A stretch of DNA of 64,000 bases, from NCBI GenBank assembly GCA_963855995.1, contig OY979718.1, positions 36,781,059 through 36,845,058 of the forward strand, in the 5' to 3' direction. The stretch's first letter is position 1, and every line of letters begins with the position of its first letter. A program made the translations under genes and the position numbers. The notes below the pieces were generated by a model. The model did no database searches. It saw only the letters and a list, made by a program, of their open reading frames with translations, and was not told where the DNA came from. This document shows, piece after piece, positions 3,601 to 59,612 of the stretch. The DNA comes from Muricea muricata (Eukaryota > Cnidaria > Anthozoa > Malacalcyonacea > Plexauridae).

Positions 3601-6600
3601 CGTTTGAATAGAGAGTTTAAGTTCGACTTCCAATACCGATGCCAACAGCAGATCGTGCACATGCACTGTGCTCGAAAAAGCACGATTTCGTAACATCATA
3701 AGTTAACACTTTAAAATTCTCGCTACCAAAATGAGAACGGAAGTGGAAACATCGGTATCGGTATTGGTATTGGAAGTCGAACTTAAACTCTCTATTATTT
3801 ACCTTTTGAACTTGTATAAAGCAGCGCTGACTGAAAACAAGCGAGGCTCACATCGGTGAGATTGTCCTCTATAGATATCTGCATACCAAACGCTGAATCT
3901 GGATTAACGTTTGGCAGTGAAAGCAGGTCCGTCGAGCGAACAAAGAAGTTACCGTGGAAAGTGTGAATACTTAGACCTACAAATACAAAAGAACACAATT
4001 AATGATACTTCGGTAGTAATTTGGTAGGTAAGGAAATGCTGGTCGATCCTGCATGCTAGCCTTACGTAAGGGAATGGGGGATGAGTGCAAGATACCCGTG
4101 TTGGTCTTTGTCAACAGGGGCCAGTTGTTCAAAAAGCAGGCTAACCCTGGGTTAAGGTAAAATTCAAAAGAAAAGTCCCAGTTGCATGCTTTTTTGAAAG
4201 CTTCGGAATGTTTCCGAGCAAGCCTTGTCTGAATCAACGGTAGTTTTAAAAGACAAACACTAAAACTGTGGGCCAAACTCTAATCCAGCTTTGAACAACC
4301 GCGATTTGGGTGCAAGTGGGTTCTACTTGTTACAGTATAATAGCTAAAATCCTAATATTCAGCATATTTGTATGAACACCCATCATAAAGTTCGCTGGTT
4401 TCATATACTCGCGACTGCTCATGTACCATCCATCTTTTGGCAGTGCACACCGACGTAGTTTGCATTTCGCGAATACCTGCTAGGTTTGCTGCTGGTTAAG
4501 ACGGCTGAAACGTTCTCCTAGCAAGTGCACATCTTTATGCCGGGGTTTTAAACACGGTCCGGTTGTAGGTGAGTAGCGCCATCCACCGGATAGCGACTTT
4601 TCAACTGCAGCAGAAAGGCATAAAAAGCAACGACACTAGGGATAATGAGCACGCAAAAGGTAACTAGCGATCCCAAGGATAGTTGCTATGACTATGTCTA
4701 GTTGCTATGGCTAGGATGCAAAGTTGATATGACAGAAACAGTCGACCTGATACACACAAGCAATTTTGGCATGCTTTTTTTATCCAACTACTGTAGCTAA
4801 TACGGTAACATGTCGCAGTTGGCGAAGTCTATAGCTGCTATATGCTCGCCTGCTTTACATGTTAAGTTGCTTTTCAATTAACAATTATTTGGCATTATAC
4901 AGTAGACAGCAAGATAGAGAAAATACACAGAGAGATATTTTTTCATATCTTCACATATCTTAATGAACAACTGAAAATGATCTTGAATGAAATTTCCATA
5001 AAAATTACTGTGAAATATGATTGCATTACCGTTAAAATGTTGTGGCAACTGTGTACATAACATAAATGACTTACTCCATTAGAAAACAAAGATCTCAAAT
5101 AAAACATTTAAAACCAATACAAGCGATGTTTGTTCAATAATTTACAATAACATTTCTACACTAAATCATGCACATTTTCATATTGAGTGAAACTCATTTA
5201 CATAAATTGCGCGATCTTTTCAAACGCTCTAGACCGTCATTACTACATGAACATGAAAATTTCAAACGAGTCAATAATAACTACAATTAAATTATATGAT
5301 ATTAGTTATAGTAAAGTCAAAATACTGAAATCATGCACATATAATATTTACCACGGTAGTAAATGTTAAAAGTAATAGTCAAAACTAACATTTACCAATA
5401 TTATATACGAGATATATCATATACGAGAAATTGCCAGCGATGATCAGCGATCCGTATTTTATTTTATCAAGCTTTGCCGCAAGGGCAGGATCACCCTAAC
5501 AACATGCACCAACTATTGCGGGCCCGCACTGCATAGATATTTTGATTTTGGAGAGGTAGGAAAATCGGAGTGCGCAGAAAAAACCTTCCAAGCACAGGAG
5601 AGATGAACTACAGGAATCCAACTAACATGAAGTACACTACCAATACCAGACTTGGTTTCAGTGGTTTCAGCGCGATAACCGCTTGCGTTTTTCGTGAATC
5701 CGGGCTTCCATAATTTATTTGCATATAGCTGTCCCAGTGGGATTGCACAAGAGAGAGACAAAAAATTTTCTAATGTATTCTCTCCCCCCCCCCCCTAGCA
5801 ATAGAACAAAATTTTCCTTCACCTTGTCGTGATGATTGGGAGAAGAAATATCGCAGACAAATTGTAATGAATGACAAGTACACTTATGTACATCATTTTT
5901 GTACATCATTTTGTGTTTAAATGCGTTTACCAATACTACAGACTACTGACAGCGTTGTTACTTCAGTCCACACGTCACAGATGAAATTTGAACTTGTTAA
6001 AGTTAGTCATTTCTCATTGGCCGCAACTCTATCATTGTAGGTCGTTGCTGTGTAAACGATCTTGTGCGACACACTATTTTCTGAGACAGATATTTGAAAG
6101 CTTCTCTGTAGGTTTTTGTCCAGACAGGCATAAATTATTGGATTGTACACAGTGTTAGATATGGCTAGTACGGGAAGTAAAGATTGAAATATATTCCCAC
6201 TAGTGAAATCTGGATAGTACATTGATAACAACTGAAAAACACCGATGGGAAGCCAACAAAAACAAAGAACTCCGACAACAATCAACAACATTTGGGCAAT
6301 CTTTAGATCATGACGTAGGGCACTTCTTTGATTTTGACCAGTGCTTGTTTCACCCAGTTCGCCATTTCGCACCATTTTCTGCCGTTGATGGGCAAGAACA
6401 AAAATACGAGCGTACATAACCAGCATGATTATGATGGAAATAAACAACATCATTACGGCACACGTATAGACTGCGTCACGTCTGCTTTCATCATCATGCA
6501 GATGGCAAAGACCTTCAACACCCGTGTAGCCCGAGTCAGGAGCGACGGCGTATGTGGCGAATACAATTGGGGAATCAACCAAATGATAAAGATGATTTTC

Positions 6601-9600
6601 AATGATTTCGAAGTTGTCATTCTTGATCTATAATGAAGTGGTTTGCTGATTTTAAGATATCGGTCAAAACTAATGAACGACAGAGAACATATAGATGCTG
6701 AGAACACCAAGTTATCGATCCACAGTATGAAGCGACAAAGGTGAATGTTACGCAGCGATCCATGACCCACACTCTGTCCATACGCCCTCACTGGTCCTAT
6801 GAAAATTCCAACCAAAATATCAGCGACAGCCAGACAAGCAATGAAATATTTATTTGGTTGATGAAGACGTCTTTCTCTCCAGGTCGCCAGCAAGATCAAA
6901 GTATTTCCCGTGATACTCGCAGTGCTGATTAAAATGAATACTAAGTCATTTTGTGCATGAAACTCGATGATTGTTCCATTATGTGAAAAAATTGACCCCG
7001 ACATTGCAAAACCTGAACCCGAGGAAAAATATATAATATTAATGAGGCAAATTTTAGAACGGCCATGGCGTTGTTTTATTCAGGGAGAAAGGCCTGGGCG
7101 TTGTACAAGCAGCTCACTAGCTTGTTGTGCATTACATTTAGACCACAACCTGTTTCGTAAGTTATATGTTGATAATTTCGAAAGATTTTACCAAGCTCAA
7201 TTTTATAAAAAGTTCCCAGAACCATCAATGTTTCATGTAGATATATTCAATATGGAAACATCATTACCTCTATTATTCGTTCTTAAAATTTGAAAAATTC
7301 TTTGTTGCTAATCTTCCTTTGTGTTAATCTCCTCCTTCCAACTCTGACATGCAGCTGACAGGCGTGAAAACACCACGTGATATTCTTCACTTGACTATTG
7401 AGTCGAGTGTACATTGCAGCTTGCGCGCACCAATGAGAAGACAGTAACGTCAACACGTGCTCATACATATAATGTTCTCTCTTACATCACAAGTAAAAAG
7501 TTTATGTAAACTGATCGAAAACACAAGGGTATGAAAAGCATCTCCTACAACACACACATAAATGACTAAACCCAAGTTATACAAACTATCTAGTTCAACA
7601 AGAACAAAACCCCTTTACTTTAACATAACGTCTTCACGCAGTAAGAACGATAAAAGTGTTTTCAGAAAGAATATTCGACTACACCATCTGTTTATCATAG
7701 CTCGTTTAAAATCAGTCTAAAGCGATGTCCTTAGCTCAACAAACACGGTCACATTTTTATCATATATTACCTTTTTGCATATATTACCTACACTTACTGC
7801 TGAATTATACAATCTTATAATTAGTGCATAATAACGTAGCTTGTTCCTGTCAAACTTTTCAGAAATCAACCTGCGTCCGTCGACATTGCTGATCTGTACA
7901 AATTCTACTGTACGTGCCCGAATGTGATTTGTTCTTATTAGGCAATTGTACAAATAATATAACTATAAAAACAAAAATTGCAGTAAGAATGTCCATCTTC
8001 GCAAAAATAATTGTGTAAACATGAAATAGAAGCCAAACTGACGAATGAAAGGCCATATTTTAAAGTTCTGCTTCGTCCGACAACACTTGACTAAAAACAC
8101 GTAAGCATCGCGGTCACATCATACTACCCACTTTTGTACTGTTCGAATATTTTGACACCTCTTTTCAAAAACACTTGTTGAGTGCAGGTGGCTTCCATTG
8201 CTATTGGAAATGTAAAAAGTTGTTTCGAAATCGTTTCCAAAATTGTTTCCGGATTTTAGTGCCTAATGTCCTGTAAGCACCAACCTCTGTAGAAAACGTT
8301 AAAGCATTTTCCAACTTGTTAATTATTTTGACTGGATCGGTGTTTTTGATGTACCTTTTGAATATATGTTAGTTATAGATTCCGGGGGTGTTTGACAATA
8401 CTGTTTATATACATATTACGAAATACAACTATTAGGTAAATTGGTTGCCATTGTGCTCATTTAAATACCTTTTTCACATTTACGAAAACCGCCCCACAGG
8501 GCAAATTAGCCTAACTACAATATTGAAGCAGCACGTTCGAGATTTACATCATCCCCCCTGGAGTTTACACCATGATTGAATGTCCAACCGATCCGAACGT
8601 TGTATTCCAATAAAATTACTGGTTACAACGTTTGATAATTCCAATAGTTACTGGAATTGTCATTTCATGCACATAAAATGAACCCTGACCCAAACCCAAA
8701 CCCTGACCCTAACCCTGACAATCCCAATAATTTATTGGAGACAATAATTTTATTGGGATACAACGTTCGGATCGGGTGGAATATCTGACTGACGAACTGA
8801 CGGATGATGTGAGTTTTCGCCACTCATCACAATACAGCAAAGTCTCAAGAAACTTTTCACTAAAAGTGACTTTAACTCGAAAATACAGAACTTCAATATG
8901 GATTTTACTAGTTATTGGTGAGGTTTACCTTTCGTACAACCTAACCAGAAAACTATTTCTAAGCGCATACTACAGATTCGATCTCATGCTAGGGGTATTT
9001 CCAGTGCTCTATACCAGTATTACATGCAACATAACTAATTACCTTTGGTGCATCTTACTCGCATGACAGCTTCAAATCCAATTTTTCTCGTTATGTACCG
9101 GCTAAGCACGAAAGGAAACAAAGCGTTAGTAAATAATCAAAAAGTTTATACTAGTGTTTTGGTTGTCAAGCTCTACAAGGACTGAAATTTGCTCATTTAC
9201 TTACAGAAGATCATTTTCAAATTTCTCGACCATAGCCCGATTTTTGGAAACGTGGAAGTTCGGTAAATACGAGAAACATCCTCCAGAGTACTTTGAAGCA
9301 CACACTACACATGAAACGCACTACGGTTAGCATATATATACATACATCTAGGCTGCTTGCTTGGCCTTAAAAAAACGTCATTCGAGATAGTGTTTGCTCA
9401 TGATTGTCATTGCTGACCACCATTTTAACTCTCATCTCGTATTACTTGCTCGAATTACTCCCATATTCGTCAGGTTTCGCGACTTTCAATCGATAACGCA
9501 AGCCTCAAGTTAAAAATCATACGAGCTAGCAAGCAGTCTTTTCCTTCGCAAGTCCTTAAAAATATTGTTTTGCACGATAACAAAGCAAAATGTCGAAGCC

Positions 9601-18600: not shown

Positions 18601-21600
18601 CGTGGGGGGTTAAGGGTCACGAGTAAAAGAGCAAAGCCCACGTGATGGACATGTTTATCACTTACAAGCTATTGCGCGAACAAAAGGGATCTGTTTATGA
18701 ATTTTTTTCCTACAGTGCGGCAGCACTTGATTAGAATTTCAATACCAGCGATTTATAACATTGAAAGGAAAATTGATTACATATTTCCGACGAAAGGAAC
18801 TGGCTGAGCGTAGCGAGGGCAACATAAATACCTACTGAAAATTACTCTAATTCGCGAATGAAAATTTGAGGTTAGGTCATAGTTGTAATACTTACGAATG
18901 TTATTACTAAAGTTAAATGTTGCTCAGACTTGAGAGATGAGTGATTAATGGAAATTTCTTTTCATATTTGCTTATTTAATAATACTTTGAGGTGGATTTA
19001 TTATGCACTTTCGACCCGCAATTTTCATTTAACTTGTACGTACTCTATTTTTTTTTCATGTTTTAATAATTCAAAAACGGCGATATTAAAAAGTTAATAG
19101 TCCGGTCTATCAAACAGTGAAAGAATTATTCCCGCAGATCAAATATATTGAGCTGCGTTAGAGTACTCCAAAGTTCGACTGTCTTTTTTTAAATAAAGAT
19201 ATTCGTAAAAATTCTGCCAATGATGGCGCTAAGGGGGTAGGGTTGGCGAGCTGAATAATAGAGGCTACGAAATACTTATTGTGTACATAAATGTGTCCAA
19301 ATATTTTTAGTTCATTTTTGAGTCATTTTTCTTTGATGAACCGCAGTAAGCAACTCAGATTAGTTACCTTGCATGGATAAATTATTGGATAAAACTTGCT
19401 TAGAAATCCTAAAATCTTTAAAGTCGATCGATTGTTGCTGGAAAAGCTCCTCAAAAAGGTGAGATGGATACCACGAAAGTGGGGATCTAGGCCATATAAA
19501 ACCCTCGGACGCTGCCCGTCCACGAAATCTTTATATGACATAAATCCCCGGCCTCCCTCTGGATATTAAAATTACAAAGATATTAAAAGGACATTTCTGA
19601 TACTGCTGTCAAGATGATTAAAGATAAGGTCAAGTTAGCCTTCGCGCAATCACTTGTACATCGCACAGGAGACGGTCGGGCTTGTGCATGCTCAATGTGA
19701 AGGCGTCCGATATGAAAAATTAAATTTATACTTGTTTTCATACATCTTCCAGTATACTCCAATTTACGTCAATTCAATATAAATTGGGGGTCAAAGCGAC
19801 GTTGAATGAATTGTATGATGTGTAATTCCGCCAAACGAACTTGACCGCAATGATTTCAAAATGTATTAACGAATGTGTAAGCATCTGTTTTTGGTATTTA
19901 TAACAATTGACTATAACTATACGGGAGAAACCAATATTACTGCAAACGCTGGCATGGAATTCACGTACATTCATGTACCATATCATATTATCTGCATTTT
20001 CGGAACAGTTTCAAATGTATTACTTCTGGTTGTGTTTATCAAAGATCCCCTGAAATGCTTCAGAAATTCAGGAACATATCTTGTCATAAGCCTTTCAGTT
20101 TCCGATTTGCTGACGAATGTATTTGGTTCGTTTCCACATATCACATCAAGAACTGGTTTTTATTTGTTTTTACTCACTTATTGGTTTGGGAGTGTCTCGC
20201 TTGCATCGCTGAGTTCCGTATCGATTGATCGCTTTATAATAGTGACTTATCCGATAAAGTACCGTACTTTAGTCAAGGGAAAAGCTATGGTTTTGTGGCT
20301 AGCAACTATTTGGATAGTGACCTGTGCCATCCCGCTATGCATGTTTTTCTCAGACAGTCACGAGGCAAGCACCAAAAGCGCACTCCACATTTTCAACGTA
20401 ACCGTTGCCATAATAACAGCAGTGATATACGCATCTACATATCACAAGTTAAAGGAACAGTCGAGGAACATAGCATTGACAAATTCAAATGAAAGTCGTG
20501 CACAAACAATACGTATCCTTAAAGAAAGACGATTTTTGAACACAATCATTATTCTGGCATGTATTGCTTTCGTTTGTACAGTGCCACCTCTGATAATTTC
20601 TGCGATCTACATTTTTCTAGATCTCGAGAGGTCAAAAATTCATGACAGAATTTTTGTTTCAGTTTTACAAATAAACTTTGCAGTGAATCCATTGATATAT
20701 ATTATACGTTTGCCAAACTATCGCAAAACATTTTATTTGATTTACTGTAGAAAACGAACATCTTCAAGTTGAGTTAATTCTGTATTTATATTAAACATAT
20801 TTTAATTAGGTTTTAGTTGAAAACTGATTTGCTAAAACTGTCTTAAAAAAAGTCAACTCTTACACCAAGTAATAGCTTTATTGTTGAACGTGCTTTTCCA
20901 ACGAAAATTCTTAGAAACTCATACAGGTTGATATACTTTATAATCAAATATTCTTGCATGAAATTCCGTATGATCATATTAATACAGTTTATTAGATGAC
21001 AAGTACCACTTCCGGTGAAATGACGCACGCTGATTGGCTGAAAAGCACTTTCACCGGCCATTACATAAATTCAAAATGGCCGCCAATGAAAGTTTTCTAA
21101 TTATTCATACTTTTGATGAAATTAAACGAATGAAGGACGCATTACAAAAAAGTACAAATACGCATTAAATACACATTACAAAAAAGTAAATACGCATTAC
21201 AAAAAAGTACAAATATACAGGAGCAAACTTTGTTAAACTATTTAAAGGTAGCCAACCGTTTGGAACTAATTTAAAAATAACTAAGCACGTAAATTCAAAG
21301 TAACTTGTAAATTATTTGTAAAATATTGCAATAGTTTCTAGACCAGAATTTACATAGTATATCTAAGAATGTCAATATCACTGGTTAAATTAATGATTTG
21401 AAACACTTGTAGGGTGTCATGCTATGTATAGAAGTGTTATCCTATAGATCTTATGCATAAATTGTGATTGGGGCCGTGTATCCTAGGAAACAGGAATTTA
21501 CGCATTGTTATTGGTCACTCCTTGCAAACAGTGACCAATAGCAGCTGGGAAATTTGTCTGAGCATGCGCCAGATAAGCCTGCGTGAACGCGTGGAAATTG

Positions 21601-41720: not shown

Positions 41721-44700
41721 ATGGCCGACGAGGAATGGAAGAAACGTTTGGATGACCCGGAATATAAAAATTGGATCAAGGTTTCTCTTGCACTGATTCA
41801 TTCAAAGGAAGCGCTTCACGACTTCACTAAAAACGTGATTGATGATCTCCATCGTGATATTAAAACCAGGGTAGGCACTGGAATATGCACTGGTACTTCT
41901 GCTTGTAACACTAACAGGAAAGGTGGAAAACCACCGAGTTGTCCAAGTTGTGATCTGTGGGTGAAAGAAATCAAATCACAGAATAAAGGACAGCTACAAT
42001 GGAAGAATGCAGACCCAACGAAATGGGACAAGGATCCTTGGGAAATCGCTAAATGCTTTATGAATGTCCAGGGAGGCAAAGCCTCCTCAGCTGCGGTTAC
42101 AGGACCTGATAAAACAGACCTCTCAGGAATGTTGAATGTTCTTATTAATTGCAAGAAATTCCGGAATGATCATATAAGTGACATAAAATTGGCTGAGAAT
42201 GTTCGGAAAGTTAGGAATGATCTAATGCACTGTGCAGCAATGGCCTTCAATGATGCTGACATGAAGGGCATGATTGACCAGGTTATTGCACTTCTTGAAG
42301 ATGGAAAGAAATTGAAGGGAATCTGTCAAAAAACAGTCAAGACTGTTAAATCATTAAGAGATAATGAATTTGAGTTGAAGGAAACAGACGAGCATGAATG
42401 CATCAAGTCTGCATTGGCAGCTGCTTCAGGAGAAGATGATCTTGCTAATGACATGATGTTGAAGCTTTGTGAATTAATCAAAGGAAACAAGGACCTGGAA
42501 ATGAAGTTTGAAGGTAAATTAAACAAGCTTGATGAAAAAGTTATGCGTATAAAAGAAGAAAATGATGCTAAGTTTTCAACAATGGACTTGACTATTGGTG
42601 AGCTCAGAGGACAAATAAACAATCTTACAAGGATGGTTACAAGCGGACCAAGTTTTTCAAGCAATCCAACCAGTTCAGTGATAGAAAATGAAATCAAGTC
42701 GTATTACAAAAGTATCCTTCAAAGTTATGCTCAAAAGAAGAATCTTGCAAAACCAGAATATGACTGCCATCCATTTGAAAATGGGTTTCGTGGCACAGTT
42801 CGTTTTAATGGAAAGGTATTCGAATCAAGTGGAGCAAAGCCAACAAAGAAAGAAGCAGAACAATGTGCAGCAGAGGAGGCATTAAATGTGTTAGGAAATG
42901 ATGGTTCAGAAGAGTGTGATGAAAAAAATGAATTGCCATCAACTAAGCTTCAGGAGTCAACCCAACGAGAAACCGGAACTAAAAACTTTAAAGGTGTATT
43001 ACAAGAAAAAGCACAGAAGCAGAAGTTCAATAAACCTATATACATCAGTACAAAGACAGATGATGGGTTGTTTTTGTCTGAAGTGATGTATAATGGTGTG
43101 TGGTACTCACCGGATAAGAGCCTCAGGCAGACTAAGAAGATTGATGCAGAACAGAAAGCTGCTGAGTTTGCCCTGGCTGCCCTAAACAGGTATTGCACAA
43201 TAATATATTTAGATACAGAGTGAAAAGTTTTAATTTTGATTCGAAAATATCATAAATTATGTACAATCATATAATATTAACCATAATTGTGCCCCTAGTT
43301 TGTTATAATTCTGCTTGGAGCTTACTGCTTCAACACCAGATTATAGTCAAGCCAAGAGACCAGTCTTGCCTGCAATGATGGTACAGTAACTAGGCTTTAA
43401 AAGGTCCTTAAAAGTCCTAAATTTATAAGCTATAATCATGCTATATTTCTGGGGAGCCTGACTTGCATAAACTAGTTTTCCGCTATACTGTAGTAACTTG
43501 GTTGGTACCTAGTATCAAGTCTTTAGAGTCACAACTGAAGAAAGCTCATTTGTCTCTGACAGCAATGGTGGACCCTAGGGGGGAGAGGGGAGGGGAGTGT
43601 GAGTCCCCCAGACAAAAAAGGAAGTACATAAAGTAAAAATCTTGCATGTACCAAATAAACACAAATCACAGCAATTACAAAATTTTTAATGAATATATGA
43701 CTATTTCATAAAACATTCAGCTAAAATGTAAGCATTATTAAGTAGAGATGCGCGATCATGAAAATAGCTGATTAACATTTACGATTAGTTGGTGGCCGAT
43801 TATTTCATATAATCGACTGATTAATTGGCATAAACCGATTACTGAAACAGCGTGCTTTGTCACGTTGTGCTTTCTGTTTAGCATTCACGAATTCTCATTC
43901 ACTTAGCTCTGTGTTTTTTTTTATTCAGGCTTCAAAATTCCATTGTCAATTAAATTAAAATAACAAGTCTTATAGAACTTTTACTACAAAGATATTCAAG
44001 AAAATATTTGCGCTCATAATTTGAAACAAGAACGACTGACGCCATCTATAACGGCCCCATTTAATTTACTTTCGGATGTCGTTCGTGTTGACAAGATGTG
44101 CGCGCTGCTTTCACTGGGTGTCATGTTCATAAACATAAGTAGTTTCTTGGAACGCGCTGTTTCTTGGATTTTCAAGTAATTTTAGCGTGCTAAAGCAGTA
44201 AAGAACCTCGTCCTTTTCCATTTAAAATAATCAAATCTATTTCCGATTATTCTACAATAATCGGCCGATTACCGATTATTTAAAAATTGGCCGATTAATC
44301 GACTTTTCCGATTAATCGGCGCATCTCTACAGTTAAGCATACCAAATAATACTGTATAATAATATTTGTTTCTGCACTGTACATGTCACAACTTGCATTT
44401 TAAGTGAGGTTTAGAAATTGTTTGAGTTGCGTTGTTCCAATAGAAATTTGATGTCGAAAATGGGAACACCGCGGAAAAACGTCTGCGCATGCGCAAGTAC
44501 TTGAAAATATTGTGGGGAATTTAAATTCCGTTTCCTTCCCGTTTCCTGAAGCAAAATCATTCCTTTTAATGGCTGAAGATAAGTGAAACAAACAAAACAA
44601 CATTAGGACGAATAGTTTGGCTATTAATTAGTAGTTTTCTAAGGTTAAGAACACAAAATTTAATATAAAAATTGACGTTTGAGTCCGGAGAGGCGTCCGA

Positions 44701-47700
44701 GTACTTCTTGAAAAATTCTCGAACACCGGATTAAAACACAAGAGTTTTGCAAACTGTGAAAGAGTTTTGCATTTGCATATGCTTAAGTTGTATAGCAGGT
44801 CATTACCTTTAAATACAGTCAACGCAAAATTTTTTCATTCTACGCAAAAAAAGTTATTGGCAAAAATGTGGATAAAATTACCCTATGTAAAATTTCCTTG
44901 TTCATTCGGTCGAGTAGCTTTCGCAAACAATAATTTTTTCATTACTCACCTTTGGCCAGCATCTAAAATAATATTATTTTCTAGGAATGTAAACTACAAT
45001 TATTTCTTGTTTTTAAGTTCATACGTTCGCTGGTTAGCTAATAATTTTACTCCAATGGCACATATGTGAGGTACTTCTTTTCACCGCCATATTGCGAAAT
45101 AAACAAGCTCAAAACACCCGATTCATCAAGCCAATCTCAGTAAAATTGACGCATGCGCAGACGTTTTTCCGCGGTGTTGAAAATGGGCCTCATGCATTCT
45201 TTTTAACTTTCGTTTTGTGTGGGGTTCCTTGCAAGCAGTTAAGTGTCACTGCCTGACAGCTCCCCCCCCCCTACCTGCAAGCAGGGATTACTGGCGGTTT
45301 AACACCGCCTATTTGGCCTCTGACGGCCGATTTTTTTTTTATCAAACAACAAATAAATTATAGTAATGATAGTTGACCGTTTTTCAATTATGAACAGTTT
45401 TGGACGTAGTTGTCTATTGACGAGATGGAGCCTGAAATGATGACTGTTATTGGAACCCCTGCTTGCAAGGTGACAATCATACAAATTTTCACACCACCCT
45501 TTAAATGAACACCATGCACATATTAATTCACGCCTGGCATTTTGCATGCAAAATCGGTCATTTCGCCTGTATTCAAATACAGCGGTTGCTCCACAAAAAG
45601 TATTCGATAAAGCTATCTTACACGAAGTACACCTAATCATTGATGCAAAATGGCGGACAAATTTTTATTTACACAAATCACAATAAGGACAACAAGAAGC
45701 AAAACTGGTGAGGAAAATGAGGAGATTTAAGTTTTTGAGGGATGCTTGTGCAAGAATCTAACCTGGACATTGTGCGACGCAACGTTTTGCTTTTGGTAAA
45801 GGCTGGTTCGATTGCATTAAACTGAAGTGAGTTGGACAGTTGCAGTGAATATTTGCGAATATTGGCAAAGTCTGCTTGTCAAGCTACGGTATACAAACGA
45901 AAATGTGTTGTTTACAAGGTTTATATGTCGGGAAGTCATGACAAGAAACTATGAAAACAAATTTCTTGCTATAAACTGCATTGAAGACATAAAACCAAAT
46001 TGAAATTACATGTATGAATTTGTAAACAATATTTGTCCATAATTGCCTTATTAAAAGGGCATTCTGCCATTCAGACAATAAGGCACAAAGATTTAAGAAA
46101 ATAGATGTGTACAACAAGACATTCTCGATATGTAGTTTTCAACAGTTTGGTCATCCAACAACTGATGCAGTGATGCTTTGTTAATTAGTGTATTAAAATT
46201 GTACTGTAAATTACACTAGCCAAAGATGAAATTTCTATCAAATTATGTAAAGCAAAAGTGTTGTAGGGAACGTAAACCTGAGTGAATGGGATTCCAACCT
46301 CACTCGCTTAATTTCTGTTTGTCACAACAAGGGTCGGGGACCAAGCTACTATGTAATTCTGGTTCTTAGCATTCCTTATGTATTCTAAGCTTTCAAAAAT
46401 TACCCTATCCACCCCAACCATTGTCAGCAGGAACAAATGTATGTAGAAAATTTTATTATAGTTTATTAATGTAAATATTTACACAGTGGTTATAATTTTT
46501 GTAAAATTAAAATTACTGAATATATTTTCTTTTATTGTTATATTTTTTGGGGGGCTCTTGATGGTACCATGGTCTTCCTTTGACAATTAAAGTCAACTGT
46601 CCATAATAAATTCATTATGTGTAGAACATAGTGGGAACAGGTGTAGTATACCTATTATGATGCCAATTTTAGTTGCCATGGGGAGTTTGTTGCTAAATGG
46701 TTACACTAGGTAAATAAAAGTTGGACCTGAACTAATGCAATATATTAATAACACATGTACACAGAAGTCTAATTAACCCACTGATGTGCAAGACCTTGAT
46801 TTTCCTGTGACAACTCAACTTGTTTTGTATAATGAACCTAAAATAAAAAGGTAGGCATTTACCTACACCATGCATTTACTACCAAAAATATGCTGGGGGG
46901 AAGACTACACAAAGCTTGCCCTAAAGCCTGGGGAGCTGATATGGGCATGTGGAGATAATCTGAAGAACATAAGCACAATGTCAGTTTGGTCTGATCATGA
47001 ATATTTATAGCATATATTTGATATGCTAATATGTAAAAAAATCTATCAATACATCCATCCTGTTTTTGAGGTTTGATTCAACTCGATGGTTGAAGACGAC
47101 AAGACAGATATACCAATAGCCATATCAATGTTCATGATCAGCAATTAAAATTGTTTTTGAACATGTCAACAATGCCTGCACTACTAATGCCAAACTCTAT
47201 TATATATTTGGGATGTAGTTTGCAGTTACAATTCCTCTTGAATATTAGTTATTAATAGCAATGTAATGCATGATTTCTTTATAAATAATGACATACAAAA
47301 CAACAACACTTGATGGTGCTAGCATAGTTGAAGTCAAATATACTTTACACCATCTCATTAGGCATTAAGGCAGCCTTAATTGCTAGATGGATAGAAAACT
47401 TTTTTTAACAGGGTAGCTCAATCAGCACAAAGGCTGGTATCCTTGGGGCCCCTGCATAATGAATATGAAAAGGTGATTTATGTAGGGTTGTGTCAAAACA
47501 AGTGTACTATATTGGCTATATATAATAGCCCATACCAATCACTATTGACAACATTAACCCTCCCAGGCCATCACCAAGTATTATTTTCTCCCAGGCAATA
47601 ATCAAGTACCAATTTTTAAAAAATTCATTGCTTTGGGTTGGGACTTCTTCAAACTACCATTATTGCTTGACTGTTAACCAGTGACTAGTGAAAATGTTTA

Positions 47701-50700
47701 AGCCGTAATCATTACTACCAGCAGTCGGCAAGCATATTCATATACTGGTACTACATGGCTTTTCATGGTGCTTTGTAGGTGTTCATTAAGTACTTGTTTG
47801 CAAGAATTTTTTAATGAGTACTGATCTTGGCCATTTGGGCTAACTTAGTGTAGTGCATTAATAAACATGAGTGAATAAATGAGCAATATATAAAATACAG
47901 TAATAAATCTGGGATAGTATATTTGCAAAATTGTAAACAAACATAAGCACTTTAGAATTGATCATCACAAAATGACAAAAATAAACGCGAGTTCTTGTTG
48001 CATCATGGTGGTTAAGTTGATATATATATATAAAATTTGAAACAGTGCAAAATACCCATGAATTAGAAACGCGATAACAAGAAATACAAAGTCTATAATA
48101 GGTTTCCTACCTTCTAGTCCGATCCATCAGGCTTTGGAGTTGCATTTTTTGCTTTTGGCCGTTGTCTTCAACCGCTAACGTGTCAAACCTTGTTTTCTTT
48201 CGCGTATACTCACAAACTTCGGATATCTCAGATTCTCGCCTTTTTTAAAGGAACAATTTGATCCTTTATACCACATTTATTAAAAAATAAAAAACATACG
48301 AACTTTAACACATGTCTGAACTTCTATAGGAACCAAAAATTAAATGAAAAGAAGCCTGAACGAAGGAACCTATACAAGCCGAAGTTGTCACATTTTAACA
48401 ACTTCGAACAAAAATACGCCATTGCGCAAAATGCCTCGAAGAAGAAGCTTTGCAGTGGAAAAACATCGCGCGTAACCATGGCGATATTGATATCATTTTA
48501 ATCCTCTAGAAACCCTCTTTCTCCCTATTGCCCTCAAATACCCACCAAGGAAAACGCGCACCAGGAATAGCTTGACGAATTTAAAGAATTTTTCAATAAT
48601 TAAATTCCCTACCAGGCTCCAAAAATATGCGCGCGGTTGCGAAAAAAATTGTCTCACTTAGAATGATCGTTTTCGCGTGCAAAATGCCAGGCGTGATTAA
48701 ATGAACATCTATCACACTGGTGATTGACCGACTTGACAAATATGATTGATGCCAAGAATTAACCTCTCCGCGGAAAGAGCCACCGTCACACAGAAAACGT
48801 GAAGAGGAGTTAGACACTACGAAAAGCTTGCCAGATAGGTCTAATCCCCCCCCCCCCCCAAAAAAAAACATGGGACTCGATGCTTATCAATAAAAGTCCA
48901 GCTACGAAGCCCATGCGCGTGATGAGGATAAAATCAAGCCCGACGAGGGGATGCTGTGGCAATTGACAACATTAGCCATTAAGACATTAGAAAACAACAC
49001 GAGGCAAAGCTAGCAATTTGCAAGAGCTAAACTTTAGTGGGTGAGTGGGTTGAAAAGGTGAGGCATACAGTGTGAAACCTGAAACCCAGCTAGCACGTGT
49101 GCATATCATACTGCCAACCCTACCAGGCAATCATTGGCCCAAAAGCCCGCGAAAATGCTCCATAATTATACATATAATCAGCACACAGCAGACCTCGTAT
49201 TTGATGTTAACTATTTTTATTGTATGAACCGATTTCACGCATTTCGAAAATGATGTAATTTTGTTTTTCTTTTTGAACTATTATTTTCCACTAACATTTC
49301 CATCAAATTTCGAAGAATGGAATTTGTAATAAAATTAATTCTAATTCGTCTATCCAGCGACGTGTCTACTTCACAGCTAGATGGTGTAAGAAATGCAGAA
49401 GCAAGAAATGAAGTGAAGTCCGGAAAAAATGTTGTTAAGCCATTCAAAATGATCCTGAATGAACACGTGCAGAAGATCACGAAGGGTATCAAATTGCCCA
49501 ACTATCAAGTCAATCCGATAGATGGGAAGTTTATTTGTACTGTGACGGTATTTGACGAACTTTACAAAAGTCCTTCGGGCGAAAACAGCAAACAAGATGC
49601 AAAAGAATCAGCAGCGAAAGAAGCCTGCAAAGCTCTTGACTTGGTAGAATCTACAGCTGAAAATGCAACAAGGTAAAGAGGGACCAGTGTGGCAACGCAG
49701 TGTCGATGTATAAGAATACGGTTTTTAGAATTTGCTTACCGTGTGATAACCGTTTATGAAGTTTGCTTTCGGGACATGCGTGTCCCTCCAAGATTTCGTC
49801 CCTCAGAAACTTCGCTGGCAATTCCTTTCTCTGAGCAAAGGACCCTCATTAGTTAGTTAGTTCTACCCTCAGGTTTACCTGCTCAAACCCATTATAGTTA
49901 GCTCCTGTTGTAAATAACACTTCAAGTGCGTGGTAATGCTTAGTGGTGCCTTAATTGTTATCAGAGTGACTACACGTTTGAGAATAGAGTCCTAATGGCA
50001 CAAAGATCATTATTCATGGTTGTTGTCTTGTTCATGTATTTCTGCTGCTGCCAATTGTCCCGATTTCAACCAACTACCCTATCTAGGTGATCTAAGAACA
50101 CGGAAAAGAACTGGCACTAGTTGTCAATTAGAAATCCATTTTTCGAGCCAAACTAGCAAAAGTATAATTTACGTCGGTTCCAAATTTCTGGTAGACTTAT
50201 AATTTTCTTTACTGAACAGGATTACAAAATTTTAACAAGTTTCATAAAGGAAAATAAAAGATACAAGCGATTAAAAACATCAAAATGGATTTTTATTCGA
50301 TGGCTTGTTCCAGGCCTTTTACTCACGGTTAGATTAGCTGGATTATTTTAAAAGAAATTCTGCTATATTTTCGTGTTCCTATTACTCGATGCTTTTTCAT
50401 TTCATTTACAGAGCAGGAGATTTATCTGCAGAAAAAGAAGAAATACCAACCATAGAGCCTGCATCCGATGAAACTGATTTTGCTACACCTCAGAAAGGTT
50501 CGACAGACATAGTACTTGATGCAACAATTGATCAAGGTAAAACATATAATGCTGTAAGCAAGCTTAATGAATATGCTCAGAGAAAGGGGGTGAAACTTGT
50601 TTACGAAGATATTCCAGTTCCAGACGACGCTGGAGGCTTTCGATGTAAGGTCACAGTACAGGACATAACATTCGAATGCAAGGGATCGTATCCGAGCAAA

Positions 50701-51654
50701 AAAGTATCAAAACAAATGGCAGCGAAGGAAGCAATCGAACATTTATGTGGATTATCTGACGACAATACATCTGCGACAAATTCTCCTGCAGTACCCTCGC
50801 TAGATTCTAAAAAACGAGACGCCGAGAGCGCATCAACTGCATCAAACTCAGAAGAAATATCATCAGGGATTGCTGAACGTACCCTTGAACAGACAACCGG
50901 CTTTGAAATAGCGAAACCACCAAGTGAAACCACAGTTTCCGAGAGTCCTCATGGACAACAGATATCGACACCAAAAACCCAGCTAAATCATAAAAATGCC
51001 CTCAAGGAGTATGTTGAAAAAAGAAAGTTAGGCCAAGCCGTATATGAGCAAATGCCGCAAGACCCAACAACGAAGATGTTTTTGAGTAAAGTTTTTATAG
51101 GAAGACGATGCTTTAAGGGAAAGGATCCCAAAACAAAATTGAAAGAAGCGGATAAACATGTTGCTCAAGTCGCACTAGACATTCTCGAGGGACGCAGTCG
51201 TACATCTGAATGCAATTTTGAAGAAGTGTTGAAGGAATACCATGACAGTATTGGTTCCCCAACGTTTCCGAAGTATGAAGAAGCTTCTTGTGAAAATGAC
51301 GGGCAGTTCAATATTAAAGTCAAGGTGAAAAAGAGATACAAATTTGTATGTGAAGATGGAAGACAAAAAAAGAAAGATGCGGAAGTTTGGTTGGCAGAAC
51401 AAGCTGTGAGAGCCTTGGAAAAAGAAAACAAGATAAGTCCATCTGAAGGGAATCCGAAAAGTAGGCTTAACGTTTTCCTTCAATCACAAGGTTGTGATCC
51501 AGAGTATGATATCCAAGGAGTTCTAGCCAAGTTCACTGGTTCTCTATGTTTTTATGTTGTCGATGTTTACGAAAGTTTGACTCCGCAGAAAACGAAAAAG
51601 GAAGCTAAAATATTTGCTGCTATGTCAGCCTGTAATGGCATGGACTTGATTTGA
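41721..51654 (+). CDS. CXorf38-like HEPN protein with seven dsRNA-binding domains (1008 aa)
   Basis: Three coding exons: 41721-43189, 49358-49672 and 50412-51654. Both introns are phase 2 (AG/C joins Ser, AG/A joins Arg), giving 1008 residues. Residues 1 to about 195 resemble human CXorf38 (DUF4559-type) as I remember it: EYKNWIKVSL near the N-terminus, a Cys4 cluster (C56, C62, C74, C77), a Trp-rich DPWEIAKCFM and the HEPN motif R165-NDLM-H170. Residues 200-310 are charged and helical, probably coiled coil. Then come dsRBDs at about 322-392, 421-489, 517-587, 641-707, 787-853, 863-931 and 943-1008. Each ends in a KKxA-type RNA-contact helix such as TKKEAEQCAAEEAL or SKQDAKESAAKEAC; the fifth and sixth are the most diverged. 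The 1.5-kb first exon carries the whole N-terminus and two dsRBDs. An ISRE-like site lies about 120 bp upstream. Role unproven: dsRNA recognition coupled to a HEPN module is inferred. Confidence 0.9.
43743..44329. mobile_element. hAT-like MITE
   Basis: The ends TAGAGATGCGC and GCGCATCTCTA are inverted, and sub-terminal repeats of the type CCGATTAATCGGC extend inward on both sides. TAGAGATGCGC termini are typical of hAT non-autonomous elements. I could not define an 8-bp target duplication with certainty. Confidence 0.65.
44465..45178. mobile_element. Non-autonomous DNA transposon, 714 bp, with a perfect 9-bp target duplication
   Basis: The ends are inverted copies of AACACCGCGGAAAAACGTCT continuing to GCGCATGCG, 29 bp identical. 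The element is flanked by the direct repeat GAAAATGGG at 44456-44464 and 45179-45187. A 9-bp duplication is typical of Mutator-like transposons. No transposase frame is present. It is inserted in intron 1 of the HEPN-dsRBD gene. Confidence 0.85.
45188..49357. other. Distal part of intron 1 of the HEPN-dsRBD gene
   Basis: From 45.9 to 48.0 kb the sequence is AT-rich and free of obvious repeats. The weak exon candidate at 48111-48239 and a pyrimidine/C-rich stretch near 48845 are the only landmarks. Confidence 0.45.
48111..48239 (-). CDS. Possible internal exon of an unknown minus-strand gene
   Basis: Inside the first intron of the HEPN-dsRBD gene a 129-bp stretch is open between an acceptor-like TTTAAAAAAG and a donor AGAAG/GTAGGA, phase 2 to 2. 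It encodes a charged helical peptide (SEISEVCEYTRKK, then KQKMQLQSLMDRTRR). I do not recognise the family and found no clear partner exons. It could be a chance open frame. Confidence 0.25.
49358..49672 (+). CDS. Exon 2 of the HEPN-dsRBD gene (third dsRBD)
   Basis: The acceptor TATCCAG joins in phase 2 to exon 1 (AACAG/GTATTG), completing a Ser codon, and the donor ACAAG/GTAAAG is again phase 2. The exon encodes a linker then one dsRBD: the start helix is PFKMILNEHVQK, the beta part is CTVTVFDELYKSPSGE, and the RNA-contact helix is SKQDAKESAAKEACKAL. Matching phases at both ends mean it can be skipped or duplicated without changing frame. Confidence 0.87.
50412..51654 (+). CDS. Exon 3 of the HEPN-dsRBD gene (dsRBDs 4 to 7)
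   Basis: Begins after TTTACAG in phase 2 and runs to a TGA. It holds four dsRBDs. The first (SKLNEYAQRKGVKLVYE; SKKVSKQMAAKEAI) follows a 45-residue acidic linker and is the type that is triplicated in the downstream paralogue. A Ser/Thr/Glu-rich 80-residue linker precedes the fifth, and the last three are closely spaced. The final one ends three residues before the stop. Confidence 0.88.
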
Positions 51655-53745: not shown

Positions 53746-54771
53746 ATGGCCGACGAGGAATGGAAGAAACGTTTGAATGACCCGGGATATAAAAATTGGA
53801 TCAAGGTTTCTCTTGCACTGATTCAATCAAAGGAAGCGCTTCGCGACTTCACAAAAAACGTGATTGACGATCTCCATGATGATATTAAGACCAAGGTAGG
53901 CTCTGGAACATGCGATGGTACTTGCAATACGCCAAAATGTAGCGCTAAAGAACCAAGCTGTCCAAGTTGTGTTAAGTGGGTGAAAGAGGTAAAAGCACAA
54001 ACCAAGGGAACACAGATTTTTTGGAGGAACGTAGACAAATCAAAATGGCACGATGATCCCTGGGAAATGGCCAAGTGTTGGATGAACCCTCAGGGTGACA
54101 AAGCCTCAGCAGCTGCGGTTACAGGACCTGATAAAACGGATCTCTCTGGAATGTTGAATGTTCTAATTAATTGTAAAGAATTCAATGGTAATCATATAAA
54201 GGAGATAAAATTGGCTGGAAATGTCCGGACAGTTAGGAATCACCTAATGCATTGTGCAACAATGTCCTTTGAAGAAGCTAAGATGAAGGACATGATTGAC
54301 CAGATCATTGCACTTCTTGAAGATGACAAGGAATTGAAGCATTTGGTAATCTGTCAAAAAACAGTCGAGAGTATTGAATTATTAAAAGATCACGAGTTTG
54401 AGCTGAAGAAAACTGATGAACATGCATGCATAGAGACAGCATTGGAAAGCCATGTGTTGGATGCTGAAACAGCCGAATCTGAAGAGGAAATTGATAAGGA
54501 TATGATATTAAAGCTTAGTCAATTAATCATGGAAAATAACGACCTGGGAAACAAGTTTGAACATAAATGTAACAAACTTGATGCAAAGATTATGAAGTTG
54601 AAGCAAGAATATGATGCTAGATTTTCTAGAGTTGATGAAACTATTTTTAAGTTTGGAGGTCGGATAGAACTCATTGAGAAGCAACTTCAGAGTGTGCAAA
54701 ATTTGCCAAACAATTCTGCAAGCTCACTATTAGGAGATGAAGTAAAGTTTTTTTACAAAAATGTTTTGTAA
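53746..54771 (+). CDS. Truncated HEPN-helical ORF of the tandem copy (341 aa)
   Basis: This open part covers the CXorf38-like HEPN domain and the predicted coiled coil, stopping just as the first dsRBD starts. Residues 1-50 are almost the same as in the intact gene (MADEEWKKRL, NWIKVSLALI). The CPSC pair and the R-x4-H motif are kept, while many positions between residues 55 and 110 differ. If transcribed it would give a HEPN protein lacking RNA-binding domains, which could act as a partner or a decoy. That is speculation. Confidence 0.65.
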   Translation: MADEEWKKRLNDPGYKNWIKVSLALIQSKEALRDFTKNVIDDLHDDIKTKVGSGTCDGTCNTPKCSAKEPSCPSCVKWVKEVKAQTKGTQIFWRNVDKSKWHDDPWEMAKCWMNPQGDKASAAAVTGPDKTDLSGMLNVLINCKEFNGNHIKEIKLAGNVRTVRNHLMHCATMSFEEAKMKDMIDQIIALLEDDKELKHLVICQKTVESIELLKDHEFELKKTDEHACIETALESHVLDAETAESEEEIDKDMILKLSQLIMENNDLGNKFEHKCNKLDAKIMKLKQEYDARFSRVDETIFKFGGRIELIEKQLQSVQNLPNNSASSLLGDEVKFFYKNVL

Positions 54772-55930
54772 AGTTGTGCCCTTAAGAAGAATATTGAGCT
54801 ACCAAAATATGATTCCAAACGAAATGAAAGTGAGCTGTTTGTCAGCACTGTTTTTTTTTTGATGGAAAAGAATTCATATCCAGTGAACCAAAGCCAACTA
54901 AGAAAGAGGCTGAACAAAGTGCAGCAGAGCAGGCATTGAAGTCTTTAAGGAATGAAGAATCAGACATGTTGCATGAAGAAAATGAATTACCGTCAATCGA
55001 ACCTCATGTCATGGATACTAGGTTAACCCAACAAGACAGTAAAAACTTCAAAGGTTTGTTAAAAGAAAAAGCAGATAAGCAGAAGGTTCTTCTTATATAC
55101 AACACCACAGCGAAAGATAATGGGTTTTTATCTGAAGTGATGTATGATGACAGGTGGTACTCACCAGATATCAGCCCACAGAAAAAGAGAAAAGATGCTG
55201 AGCAGAAAGCTGCCCAGTTTGCCCTGGATGTCTTAAACAGGTATTAAAATAAATATTATATGCGTAAAAATTTGATTTATTGAATGTGTTTAGATTGTTG
55301 GCAGCATTTAGAATTAATGAAAAATTAGCTACCAACTACACTTTAGCATGTGCTCAATTTTATTATTGACCCACCCTTAGCTTACTGTGTCACACAAATG
55401 TTTTCATGTATTGTTTAGAAATTAAAGAGATCAATACCCCTCTGTGGACATCCTATACAGTCAGTGCAAATTTAGGACATTCTTTAGACAACCCCCCAAC
55501 TCTCAGGAAAGTGGAAATTTCCTCTGTGGGTTTTGTCATGGATCTTTTCTAAAATGACCCAATTAATGTTGATATGCATTGGTCTAATTATCCTGGATTA
55601 CTAAATCCAATTTTCAAATTGGACAGTATTCAACTAAACCAATATATGGTTGCTAGATGTAAATATACCATTTAATGACTGGTCCAAATAAAACTGGAGG
55701 GGGAGCATGTATATCTGAATAATACTATACATGATTTTTTTTAAATTTGTCTTTATGGTTTCCTCCTCTTTTCTTCCTCTTATCTTCTGGGTCACAAACT
55801 TAAACTGTCTATTTTTAATCACTAAAATTGACATAAATTTCCTTAAGTTTCAAAATGCAAAAAATAGTACAGCAATCACCCTCACACCCTGCCAGATATC
55901 ACCAGGTACCTAGGCGTTGGTCTTTCATAG

Positions 55931-57665: not shown

Positions 57666-58241
57666 GCCAACAGATTTAAATTCAAATAAAGAAAGAAGAC
57701 CAACGAATGAACCGGCATCTGATGAAACTGACACTGGCACACTTGGAAATGAATCGGCAGAGATAAGTGAGGGTGCGACAGGTGGTGATGGAAAAACATG
57801 CAATGCTAAAAGTGAGCTTAATGAATATGCCCAGAGACAAGGAACAAAACCTAGTTACGAGCCGATCAAAGTTTCAGACAACAGCTTTCCGACAAGCTTT
57901 CGAAGTAAGGTCACAGTATTGGGCAAAACATTCGAGTGTGTAGGATCGTATTCGACCAAAAGAATGTCCGAGCAAATGGCTGCAGCTGAAGCCATGAAAT
58001 ATTTTAATGCTTTGTTGTATGAAGACAATTCGTCTGCGACAACATCTGCAACGAATTTCTCTAAAATATTTCCTGTTGATTGTGCTAAAAGAGACGATTC
58101 AACTAGAACAAACGTTGCAGAAGGGAATATGACTTGTGAAATTTCATCTAAAGTCTTGTTCACGAACAACACGCAAGATACAAAGGAATCGACAGAACGA
58201 GAAGCGTGCAAAGGTTCAAAAGCTACACCTAAGGATTTAAG
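57666..58241 (+). CDS. dsRBD exon of the tandem copy, possible chimeric exon
   Basis: The acceptor TTCAATAG and the donor TTTAAG/GTAATG are both phase 2, matching the exon ending at 55240. The N-terminal part (PTDLNSNKE, EPASDETD, then SELNEYAQRQGTKPSYE) matches the fourth dsRBD of the intact gene, including its preceding linker. The last 25 residues (QDTKESTEREACK) instead resemble the end of the intact gene's third-dsRBD exon (QDAKESAAKEACK). This suggests fusion of the two exon types during unequal exchange. Confidence 0.65.
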
Positions 58242-59562
58242 GTAATGGAAGACTTAAGTGGTATAACATGCAACACAGAGCAAAATTCACATGCAGTTTA
58301 TGAGGACTGCTTTTCAAACGCGTTTTTTAAAGTGCACATGCAGCTTTTGGAAATTTGACATATTTGTGATGTTTAGGAGACGTAAGTTTTTTTCCTAGAG
58401 AGAAAAGCCATCTTCGTGGTCGTTTTGGCTCTTTAAGTTACCGGATCTGATGTCATTTAAGTTAATGCAAATAAGCTTTTCGTTGTTTCGTGCTTCAAAA
58501 ATGACTTAAATGACGTCAGCTCCTCTAACTTAAGAAGCAAAAAAAACCCATGAAGGTGAAGTTTTACTATAAAATAATATATTGCATTCCGTGTTAAAAT
58601 GTACTAAATTTTGCAAATATATTAAATCTCAAATGTACGTTTCAAACTTATACGTACAAGAACATAAAAGTTATGCTTTAAGGCACACCAGCATAAACCT
58701 CGTCTAAGGGCCAAAAAACTTCATGCCATCAGAGTTTTTGTATTTCATATCGTTTTCATTTTGACTGTTGTGAAAACCCTCGGAAACTACTTCGTGTGCA
58801 CAAAGTCGTAATCTCATACACACAGCTTTCGCGCATTATTTCTGGTTTCAAACTAACATCTTACTATTTTGAAAGAAAATTTATGTGCGTGTCGATATGA
58901 TGATTTTTATTCAATAGGGCAGCAGATTTAAATTCAAATAAAGAAAGAAGACCAACGAATGAACATCCACCTGATGAAACCGACTAGTGAGGGTGCGACA
59001 AGTGGTGATGAAAAAACATACAATGCTAAAAGTGAGCTTAACGAATATGCCCAGAGACAAGGAACAACACCTAGTTACGAGCCGATCAAAGTTTCAGGCA
59101 ACAGCTTTCCAACAAGCTTTCGAAGTAAGGTCACAGTATTGGGCAAAACATTCGAATGTGTAGGATCGTATTCGACCAAAAGAATGTCCGAGCAAATGGC
59201 TGCAGCTGAAGCCATGAAATATTTTAATGCTATGTTGTATGAGGAAAGAAGACCAACGAATGAACCTGCATCTGATGAAACTGACACTGGCACACTTGGA
59301 AACGATTCGGCAGAGTTAAGTGGTGGTGCGACAGGTGGTGATGGAAAAACATGCAATGCTAAAAGTGAGCTTAATGAATATGCCCAGGGACAAGGAACAA
59401 AACCTAATTACGAGCCGATCCAAGTTTCAGACGACAGCTTTCCGACAAGCTTTCGAAGTAAGGTCACAGTATTGGGCAAAACATTCGAGTGTGTAGGATC
59501 GTATTCGACCAAAAGAATGTCCGAGCAAATGGCTGCAGCTGAAGCCATGAAATATTTTAATG
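57691..59562 (+). repeat. Three near-identical dsRBD-coding units
   Basis: Units at 57691-58017, 58943-59228 and 59244-59562 all begin GAAAGAAGACCAACGAATGA and end in AAATATTTTAATG. The second and third are fused head to tail by 15 bases. They differ by few substitutions and by one deletion in the second, so the amplification looks recent. Confidence 0.85.
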
Positions 59563-59612
59563 GGGTGCAAGAGGGCAATTCGTTTGCAGCGCATAGACAT
59601 CACCACTTTTAG
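58918..59612 (+). pseudogene. Last exon of the tandem copy with two near-identical dsRBDs, frameshifted at its start
   Basis: The exon starts after TTCAATAG in phase 2. Read in that phase it meets TAG at 58985-58987, because roughly 35 bases present in the sister exon (the segment for TGTLGNESAEIS) are missing. Past that point the frame is open to 59612 and encodes two dsRBDs of the fourth-dsRBD type, one directly after the other. The final few residues are His-rich (HRHHHF). Only a different start or splice could restore the reading frame. Confidence 0.6.

Follow-up and report, generated by a model that had tools for sequence, protein, structure and literature searches.

CXorf38-type HEPN domains carry an inserted zinc ribbon and, according to the passages of the HEPN superfamily survey that treat this family, occur fused to double-stranded RNA (dsRNA)-binding domains (dsRBDs) and to NACHT, ankyrin, CARD and DEATH domains (Anantharaman et al. 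2013, PMC3710099). The same passages describe the superfamily motif as an RNase site of the form Rx4-6H, which functions without metal and whose histidine is indispensable to RNase L, RloC and PrrC; they place the dsRBD fusions in vertebrates, cephalochordates and hemichordates and NACHT/DEATH fusions in cnidarians, and already suggest that the dsRBD-fused proteins act on viral dsRNA (PMC3710099). Here we describe a predicted gene of the cnidarian Muricea muricata that joins a CXorf38-type HEPN domain to seven dsRBDs. It lies on the plus strand at 41721-51654 of a 64,000-nucleotide (nt) stretch of DNA (the window; GenBank assembly GCA_963855995.1, contig OY979718.1, positions 36,781,059 to 36,845,058) and is followed by a damaged tandem paralogue; we refer to the two as copy A and copy B. 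The chances that the copy A product is an RNase of innate immunity, gathered on dsRNA and acting through HEPN dimers, seem to us evenly balanced.

An earlier note on this DNA, made from the letters alone, had joined three exons in phase to a protein of 1008 residues, and this reconstruction holds. Joining the exons at GT and AG borders gives a 3027-nt frame with no internal stop, predicted to encode 1008 amino acids (aa) plus the stop codon. The two introns measure 6168 nt (intron 1) and 739 nt (intron 2), and both are phase 2 as calculated from the exon lengths, which makes exon 2 symmetric. The exons are as follows:

41721..43189, plus strand: exon 1, with the HEPN domain (DUF4559), a helical linker, dsRBD1 and dsRBD2 (open frame up to the GT donor; Pfam)
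49358..49672, plus strand: exon 2, phase 2-2, with dsRBD3 at 49446-49637 (dsrm 41.9 bits; splice sites)
50412..51654, plus strand: exon 3, with dsRBD4-7 and the stop codon (splice join, Pfam, leave-out profile)

Intron 1 also harbours an insert resembling a miniature inverted-repeat transposable element (44465-45178), with perfect terminal inverted repeats of 29 nt and 656 nt in between.

When the whole protein was compared with Pfam, its N-terminus matched DUF4559 (PF15112), the CXorf38-type HEPN, at 124.1 bits against a cut-off of 27 (E 1e-35), in agreement with the family and the residue numbers given by the earlier note. Active-type HEPN domains have a polar residue after the arginine of Rx4-6H, and copy A reads R165-N166-x3-H170; cysteines 56, 62, 74 and 77 form a putative zinc site where the family has its inserted zinc ribbon. 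The features of this region are:

41745..42371, plus strand: CXorf38-type HEPN domain (DUF4559), aa 9-217 (PF15112, 1.5e-37)
41886..41951, plus strand: Cys4 insert C56, C62, C74, C77, putative zinc ribbon (C56, C62 and C77 in 17/17 aligned copies, C74 in 12/17)
42213..42230, plus strand: HEPN active-site motif R165-N-D-L-M-H170 (R, N and H in 17/17 aligned copies)
42570..42635, plus strand: heptad-like stretch closing the linker (aa 284-305), a possible dimer helix (weak; from a simple a/d hydrophobicity scan without control)

In the alignment of 17 HEPN copies from this genome, R165, N166, H170, C56, C62 and C77 were among 17 invariant columns of the 179 that were fully occupied. The arginine, asparagine and histidine of RN-x3-H are thus intact in every aligned copy, although copy A shares no more than 22-30% identity with the 15 family members apart from copy B; this conservation speaks for the RNase proposal. 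The HEPN_Swt1 profile also matched all 17 copies at E<=0.1 (best 1.2e-6), copy A scoring 20 bits, below the 27.5-bit cut-off.

Beyond the linker lies an array of dsRBDs; for the whole protein, dsrm scored 151 bits (1.3e-44). NCBIfam models for RNase III (over its dsRBD end) and for a seadornavirus dsRNA-binding protein also matched, both under cut-off. Scanned piecewise against dsrm (cut-off 23 bits) and DSRM_2 (cut-off 27), four of the seven domains, dsRBD1 to dsRBD4, exceeded the Pfam cut-off, and dsRBD5 to dsRBD7 fell below it. Besides dsRBD3 in exon 2, the domains are:

42696..42893, plus strand: dsRBD1 (dsrm 51.2 bits)
42981..43187, plus strand: dsRBD2 (dsrm 24.4 bits, cut-off 23)
50551..50745, plus strand: dsRBD4 (dsrm 47.5 bits)
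50992..51177, plus strand: dsRBD5, diverged (leave-out profile 30.4 bits; weak PDB matches of HYL1, DRB4 and DUS2 type; no Pfam match)
51214..51417, plus strand: dsRBD6, diverged (leave-out profile 23.8 bits; DSRM_2 16.8 bits, under cut-off)
51454..51636, plus strand: dsRBD7, diverged (dsrm 19.8 bits, under cut-off, E 0.0012; leave-out profile 17.0)

Because the count of seven depends on the last three domains, we scored each of them, together with 5000 shuffles of each, against a leave-out profile built from dsRBD1-4 and five other dsRBDs of the same genome. The domains scored 30.4, 23.8 and 17.0 bits, compared with best shuffles of 12.2, 10.9 and 16.5, respectively; none of the 5000 shuffles reached the score of its domain, with a narrow margin for dsRBD7 (a score was reported for 4927, 4967 and 4655 shuffles of dsRBD5, dsRBD6 and dsRBD7). 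In a PDB search, dsRBD5 alone retrieved ten distinct sequences with E values of 10 or less, the lowest being 0.026. Seven of them are named HYL1, DRB4 or DUS2-type, two others (3adg and 1whn) are also dsRBDs, and one (GERE) is no dsRBD. The same search returned no chain for dsRBD6 and a single unrelated chain, not a dsRBD, for dsRBD7. The leave-out scores rule out an inflated count, and seven, as the earlier note had it, is right, with dsRBD7 and dsRBD6 the least secure.

Copy A belongs to an expanded family. In the genome (453 Mb, 74 contigs), 28 candidates were scored for DUF4559 and 20 of them matched, each above the cut-off. We take these to be 19 loci, since two neighbouring pieces on contig C2 look like a single one; the alignment and tree comprise 17 copies, two broken loci being excluded. 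The tree resolved three groups that track the type of partner domain, each forming one side of a supported branch: a dsRBD group (support 100/100, 2 rows), an NB-ARC group (100/99, 10 rows) and a solo group (95/90, 5 rows). Labels shuffled over the tree were as clustered in 21/500 trials for the dsRBD group, which has just two rows, and in 1/500 and 0/500 for the other two; the tree program warned that long branches meet. Of the 15 loci that lie outside the window, six owe their partner label to a domain scan (NB-ARC in three, DUF4559 or HEPN_Swt1 only in the other three); the rest were labelled from sequence likeness and frame length. The NB-ARC-type loci lie on contigs C1, C5 and C11, and the solo copies have a hydrophobic tail, as judged by eye. 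The genome also contains at least 22 dsrm matches (30 candidates scored), seven of them in the window; when the two match lists were compared, no listed dsrm match lay within 100 kb of any DUF4559 locus outside the window. A HEPN motif that stays constant while its partner varies is what would be expected if the HEPN domain were the output and its partners the sensors or switches, which makes this the economical reading; in the dsRBD form, dsRNA would be the trigger or the target.

We infer a single transcript, dsRNA binding, dimerisation and RNase activity in an antiviral role. The dsRBDs would gather several molecules on long dsRNA, such as viral replication intermediates or transposon duplexes; gathering would bring the HEPN domains together, possibly with help of the linker helix; and the HEPN dimers would then cut RNA, independently of metal, via R165 and H170. 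One chain would thereby combine PKR-like sensing with RNase L-like action. The earlier note had put forward a protein that collects on dsRNA and cuts or signals via HEPN dimers; an RNase acting on dsRNA is a reasonable hypothesis, and the same prediction is in the 2013 survey (PMC3710099).

Several observations weigh against this proposal. A PDB search with the 17-row HEPN profile found no HEPN structure, returning two unrelated chains, and so it is from profiles and the motif that the fold is assigned; searching PDB with the HEPN part of the protein likewise gave three unrelated chains. In the human CXorf38 paper that was searched, the words HEPN, RNase, RNA-binding and domain do not occur. 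The array itself raises a further difficulty. Canonical dsRBDs contact RNA through a GPxH loop and a KKxAK helix. GPxH occurs in none of the seven domains, a feature on which the earlier note was silent, and in two of the five other dsRBDs of the genome that served as controls; KKx[AS]K is confined to dsRBD4 (KKVSK) and dsRBD7 (KKEAK), with a partial form in dsRBD3 (KQDAK), compared with KKxAK in four of the five controls. The GPxH loop is thus often missing in this genome, and the basic helix motif is thinner in the array than in the controls. Seven domains therefore need not equal seven binding sites: RNA binding may be carried by two or three of them, and the others may serve for spacing or protein contacts.

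These same features would suit a dsRNA-binding scaffold or signalling protein, in which the HEPN domain self-associates and cuts no RNA, the ligands of the array being structured RNA or other proteins with dsRBDs. Divergence and the loss of RNA-contact motifs mark several of the domains, and Staufen offers a precedent: mRNA binding was assigned by earlier data to its dsRBDs 3-4, dsRBDs 1-2 also bind, and Staufen1 is cited as dimerising through a degenerate dsRBD (PMC6477676). A mere dimer module would, however, have no need of the catalytic R, N and H that all 17 copies retain, and we regard the scaffold as unlikely, if worth serious attention.

The gene model invites a second challenge, namely that there are two genes or transcripts, with exon 1 encoding a HEPN protein with two dsRBDs and exons 2-3 a separate five-dsRBD protein or a part used in one isoform. 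Read without splicing, exon 1 continues for only 11 codons after its last complete one before a stop, which would give a 500-aa HEPN-2xdsRBD protein and is a further point against the RNase proposal, and an in-frame ATG lies upstream of the exon 2 acceptor. Intron 1, at 6.2 kb, contains the inverted-repeat insert and 25 AATAAA/ATTAAA words, and its donor, GTATTG, looks weak in our judgement. Identity between copies A and B is 0.82 over the final 90 nt of exon 1 and 0.79 over the initial 90 nt of the intron (shuffled control: mean 0.69, maximum 0.81), and 0.69 on either side of the exon 3 acceptor; since identity does not fall at the splice sites by more than the shuffled control allows, the comparison neither supports nor excludes them. 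Against two genes, the phases fit at both junctions, and a genome query with exon 3, in which nine candidates were scored, gave four matches at E<=0.001: the exon itself and three sites within copy B, each with a HEPN copy upstream of it. Copy B moreover repeats counterparts of exon 1 and then exon 3 in the same order. A split locus seems to us distinctly improbable. Given the fitting phases and the order in copy B, the three exons probably belong to a single gene and transcript.

Copy B, which the earlier note had passed over, begins at 53746, downstream of copy A, and is 64% identical to it across the first 320 aa. Its parts are:

53746..55240, plus strand: counterpart of exon 1, with HEPN, linker, broken dsRBD1 and dsRBD2 (64% identity; broken frame)
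57666..58245, plus strand: counterpart of exon 3, with one dsRBD4-like domain (dsrm 40.6 bits; start placed at an AG by eye)
58995..59612, plus strand: two further dsRBD4-like domains (dsrm 82.1 bits, two stretches)

Two lesions disrupt its dsRBD1, an in-frame stop and a change of frame where ten Ts follow one another (54851-54860), and this damage also counts against the RNase proposal. No clear counterparts of exon 2 or dsRBD5-7 were found in copy B, the matches being at the level of general dsRBD-dsRBD likeness; a short piece near 58165 resembles the end of dsRBD3. The three dsRBD4-like units lie at 57805-58002, 59025-59222 and 59358-59555, the first two being 97% identical over 66 codons and the third alike by eye, which suggests recent duplication of single domains. 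This combination of damage, loss and amplification could indicate that the locus has no function today and survives as a decaying relic within an expanded immune family. Copy A, however, is open across 1008 codons, and the pairwise ratio of non-synonymous to synonymous substitution rates (dN/dS) between A and B is below 1: 0.38 for HEPN and linker, 0.41 for dsRBD2 together with what remains of dsRBD1, and 0.65 for dsRBD4. These values fit purifying selection on the HEPN and dsRBD parts for most of their history, and we consider a relic highly improbable.

As a class, the layout is not new, given the CXorf38-HEPN-dsRBD fusions in PMC3710099. The earlier note's statement that it knew of no characterised protein of this kind stands in so far as our literature search turned up no experimental characterisation of the CXorf38-HEPN-dsRBD layout, and falls short in that the fusion class was published in 2013 (PMC3710099); a search on seven dsRBDs and variants of the phrase gave only one unrelated paper. 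The relevant part of a survey of cnidarian pattern-recognition receptors discusses DZIP3-type HEPN-NACHT proteins and does not use the term DUF4559 (PMC8260672), and HEPN domains are reported with TRADD-N domains in cnidaria in passages of a further study (PMC8195603). The cnidarian dsRBD form, which the passages of these three sources do not report for cnidarians, and its unusually long seven-domain array look new; the damaged tandem paralogue and the three partner-tracking HEPN groups in one genome are new. Among viral contig and genome contig collections, 5 and 25 pattern matches, respectively, were obtained, none of them confirmed as a relative. The CXorf38 family has a human member, and the human-protein study searched is silent on RNase activity; a cnidarian form whose motif is intact and whose dsRBD array is long lends itself well to testing whether the family is a dsRNA-triggered nuclease, and the presence of dsRBD, NB-ARC and solo forms in one genome makes partner swapping on one nuclease directly testable.

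In Nematostella, an interferon-like response to dsRNA proceeds via RLRb, and OAS1 is raised in RLRb-positive cells, according to the passages concerned (PMC13319465). OAS and RIG-I C-terminal domains are present in the Muricea genome, together with many KEN domains. KEN nuclease domains (PF06479, RNase L/IRE1-type) gave 59 matches, all over cut-off and many in arrays, at C9 4.3-5.1 Mb and 8.5-9.3 Mb, C7 11.70-11.72 Mb and C12 7.1-9.9 Mb. Four frames were sampled: three, of 968 to 2479 aa, combine ankyrins, a kinase domain and KEN as RNase L does, and the fourth has a kinase end and KEN; such an RNase-L-like expansion in a cnidarian is worth separate study. OAS1_C (PF10421) occurs at three loci (6 matches, C11 2.72-2.81 Mb), about 0.4-0.6 Mb from a CXorf38-HEPN array at C11 2.23-2.34 Mb, and the RIG-I C-terminal domain at C5 17763160-17763504 and C8 13627062-13627409. 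The window also contains rhodopsin-type G-protein-coupled receptor sequences at 6007-7079 (minus strand, in two overlapping frames) and 19870-20772 (plus strand). A single GFP-family match occurs in the genome; its fragment retrieved 44 PDB sequences, the best being 2rh7, a Renilla GFP, in keeping with an anthozoan and perhaps an octocoral.

A more specific form of the RNase proposal, which we hold tentatively and rate at somewhat under an even chance, is that copy A encodes a self-contained dsRNA-triggered RNase that needs no second messenger, in which the multivalent dsRBDs would clamp long dsRNA and the HEPN domains pair along it and destroy RNA. It would work beside OAS and the expanded RNase-L-like set, and dsRBD, NB-ARC and solo or membrane forms would be three modules exchanged as partners of one HEPN nuclease family.

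In PKR, two dsRBDs gather molecules on dsRNA and thereby activate a kinase effector; the likeness to copy A lies in the predicted gathering, and the kinase and the number of dsRBDs set PKR apart. RNase L acts downstream of dsRNA as a dimer and senses it indirectly, via 2-5A and its ankyrins. What it shares with copy A is the HEPN-superfamily RNase site, in its case KEN, as stated in the survey passages (PMC3710099). It differs in its kinase-like domain and KEN: ankyrins, the RNase L kinase-like domain and KEN are absent from the eight Pfam families that match the copy A protein at E<=1. Staufen also has a tandem dsRBD array with one diverged member and is, to our knowledge, a dsRBD protein with neither HEPN nor another effector domain, whereas copy A has the HEPN domain. 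Its dsRBDs number three to four, with one dsRBD-like domain in addition (PMC6477676), compared with seven here. The cnidarian CXorf38 HEPN-NACHT/NB-ARC proteins share the HEPN family and motif in the survey passages (PMC3710099), carry a STAND NTPase in place of the dsRBDs and form a separate group in our tree. Also close are the described CXorf38-HEPN-dsRBD proteins, which have in common with copy A a HEPN domain listed as active, the zinc-ribbon insert, the dsRBD fusion and the prediction of action on dsRNA; the passages that describe them give no dsRBD count (PMC3710099), and the protein described here is cnidarian and has seven dsRBDs.

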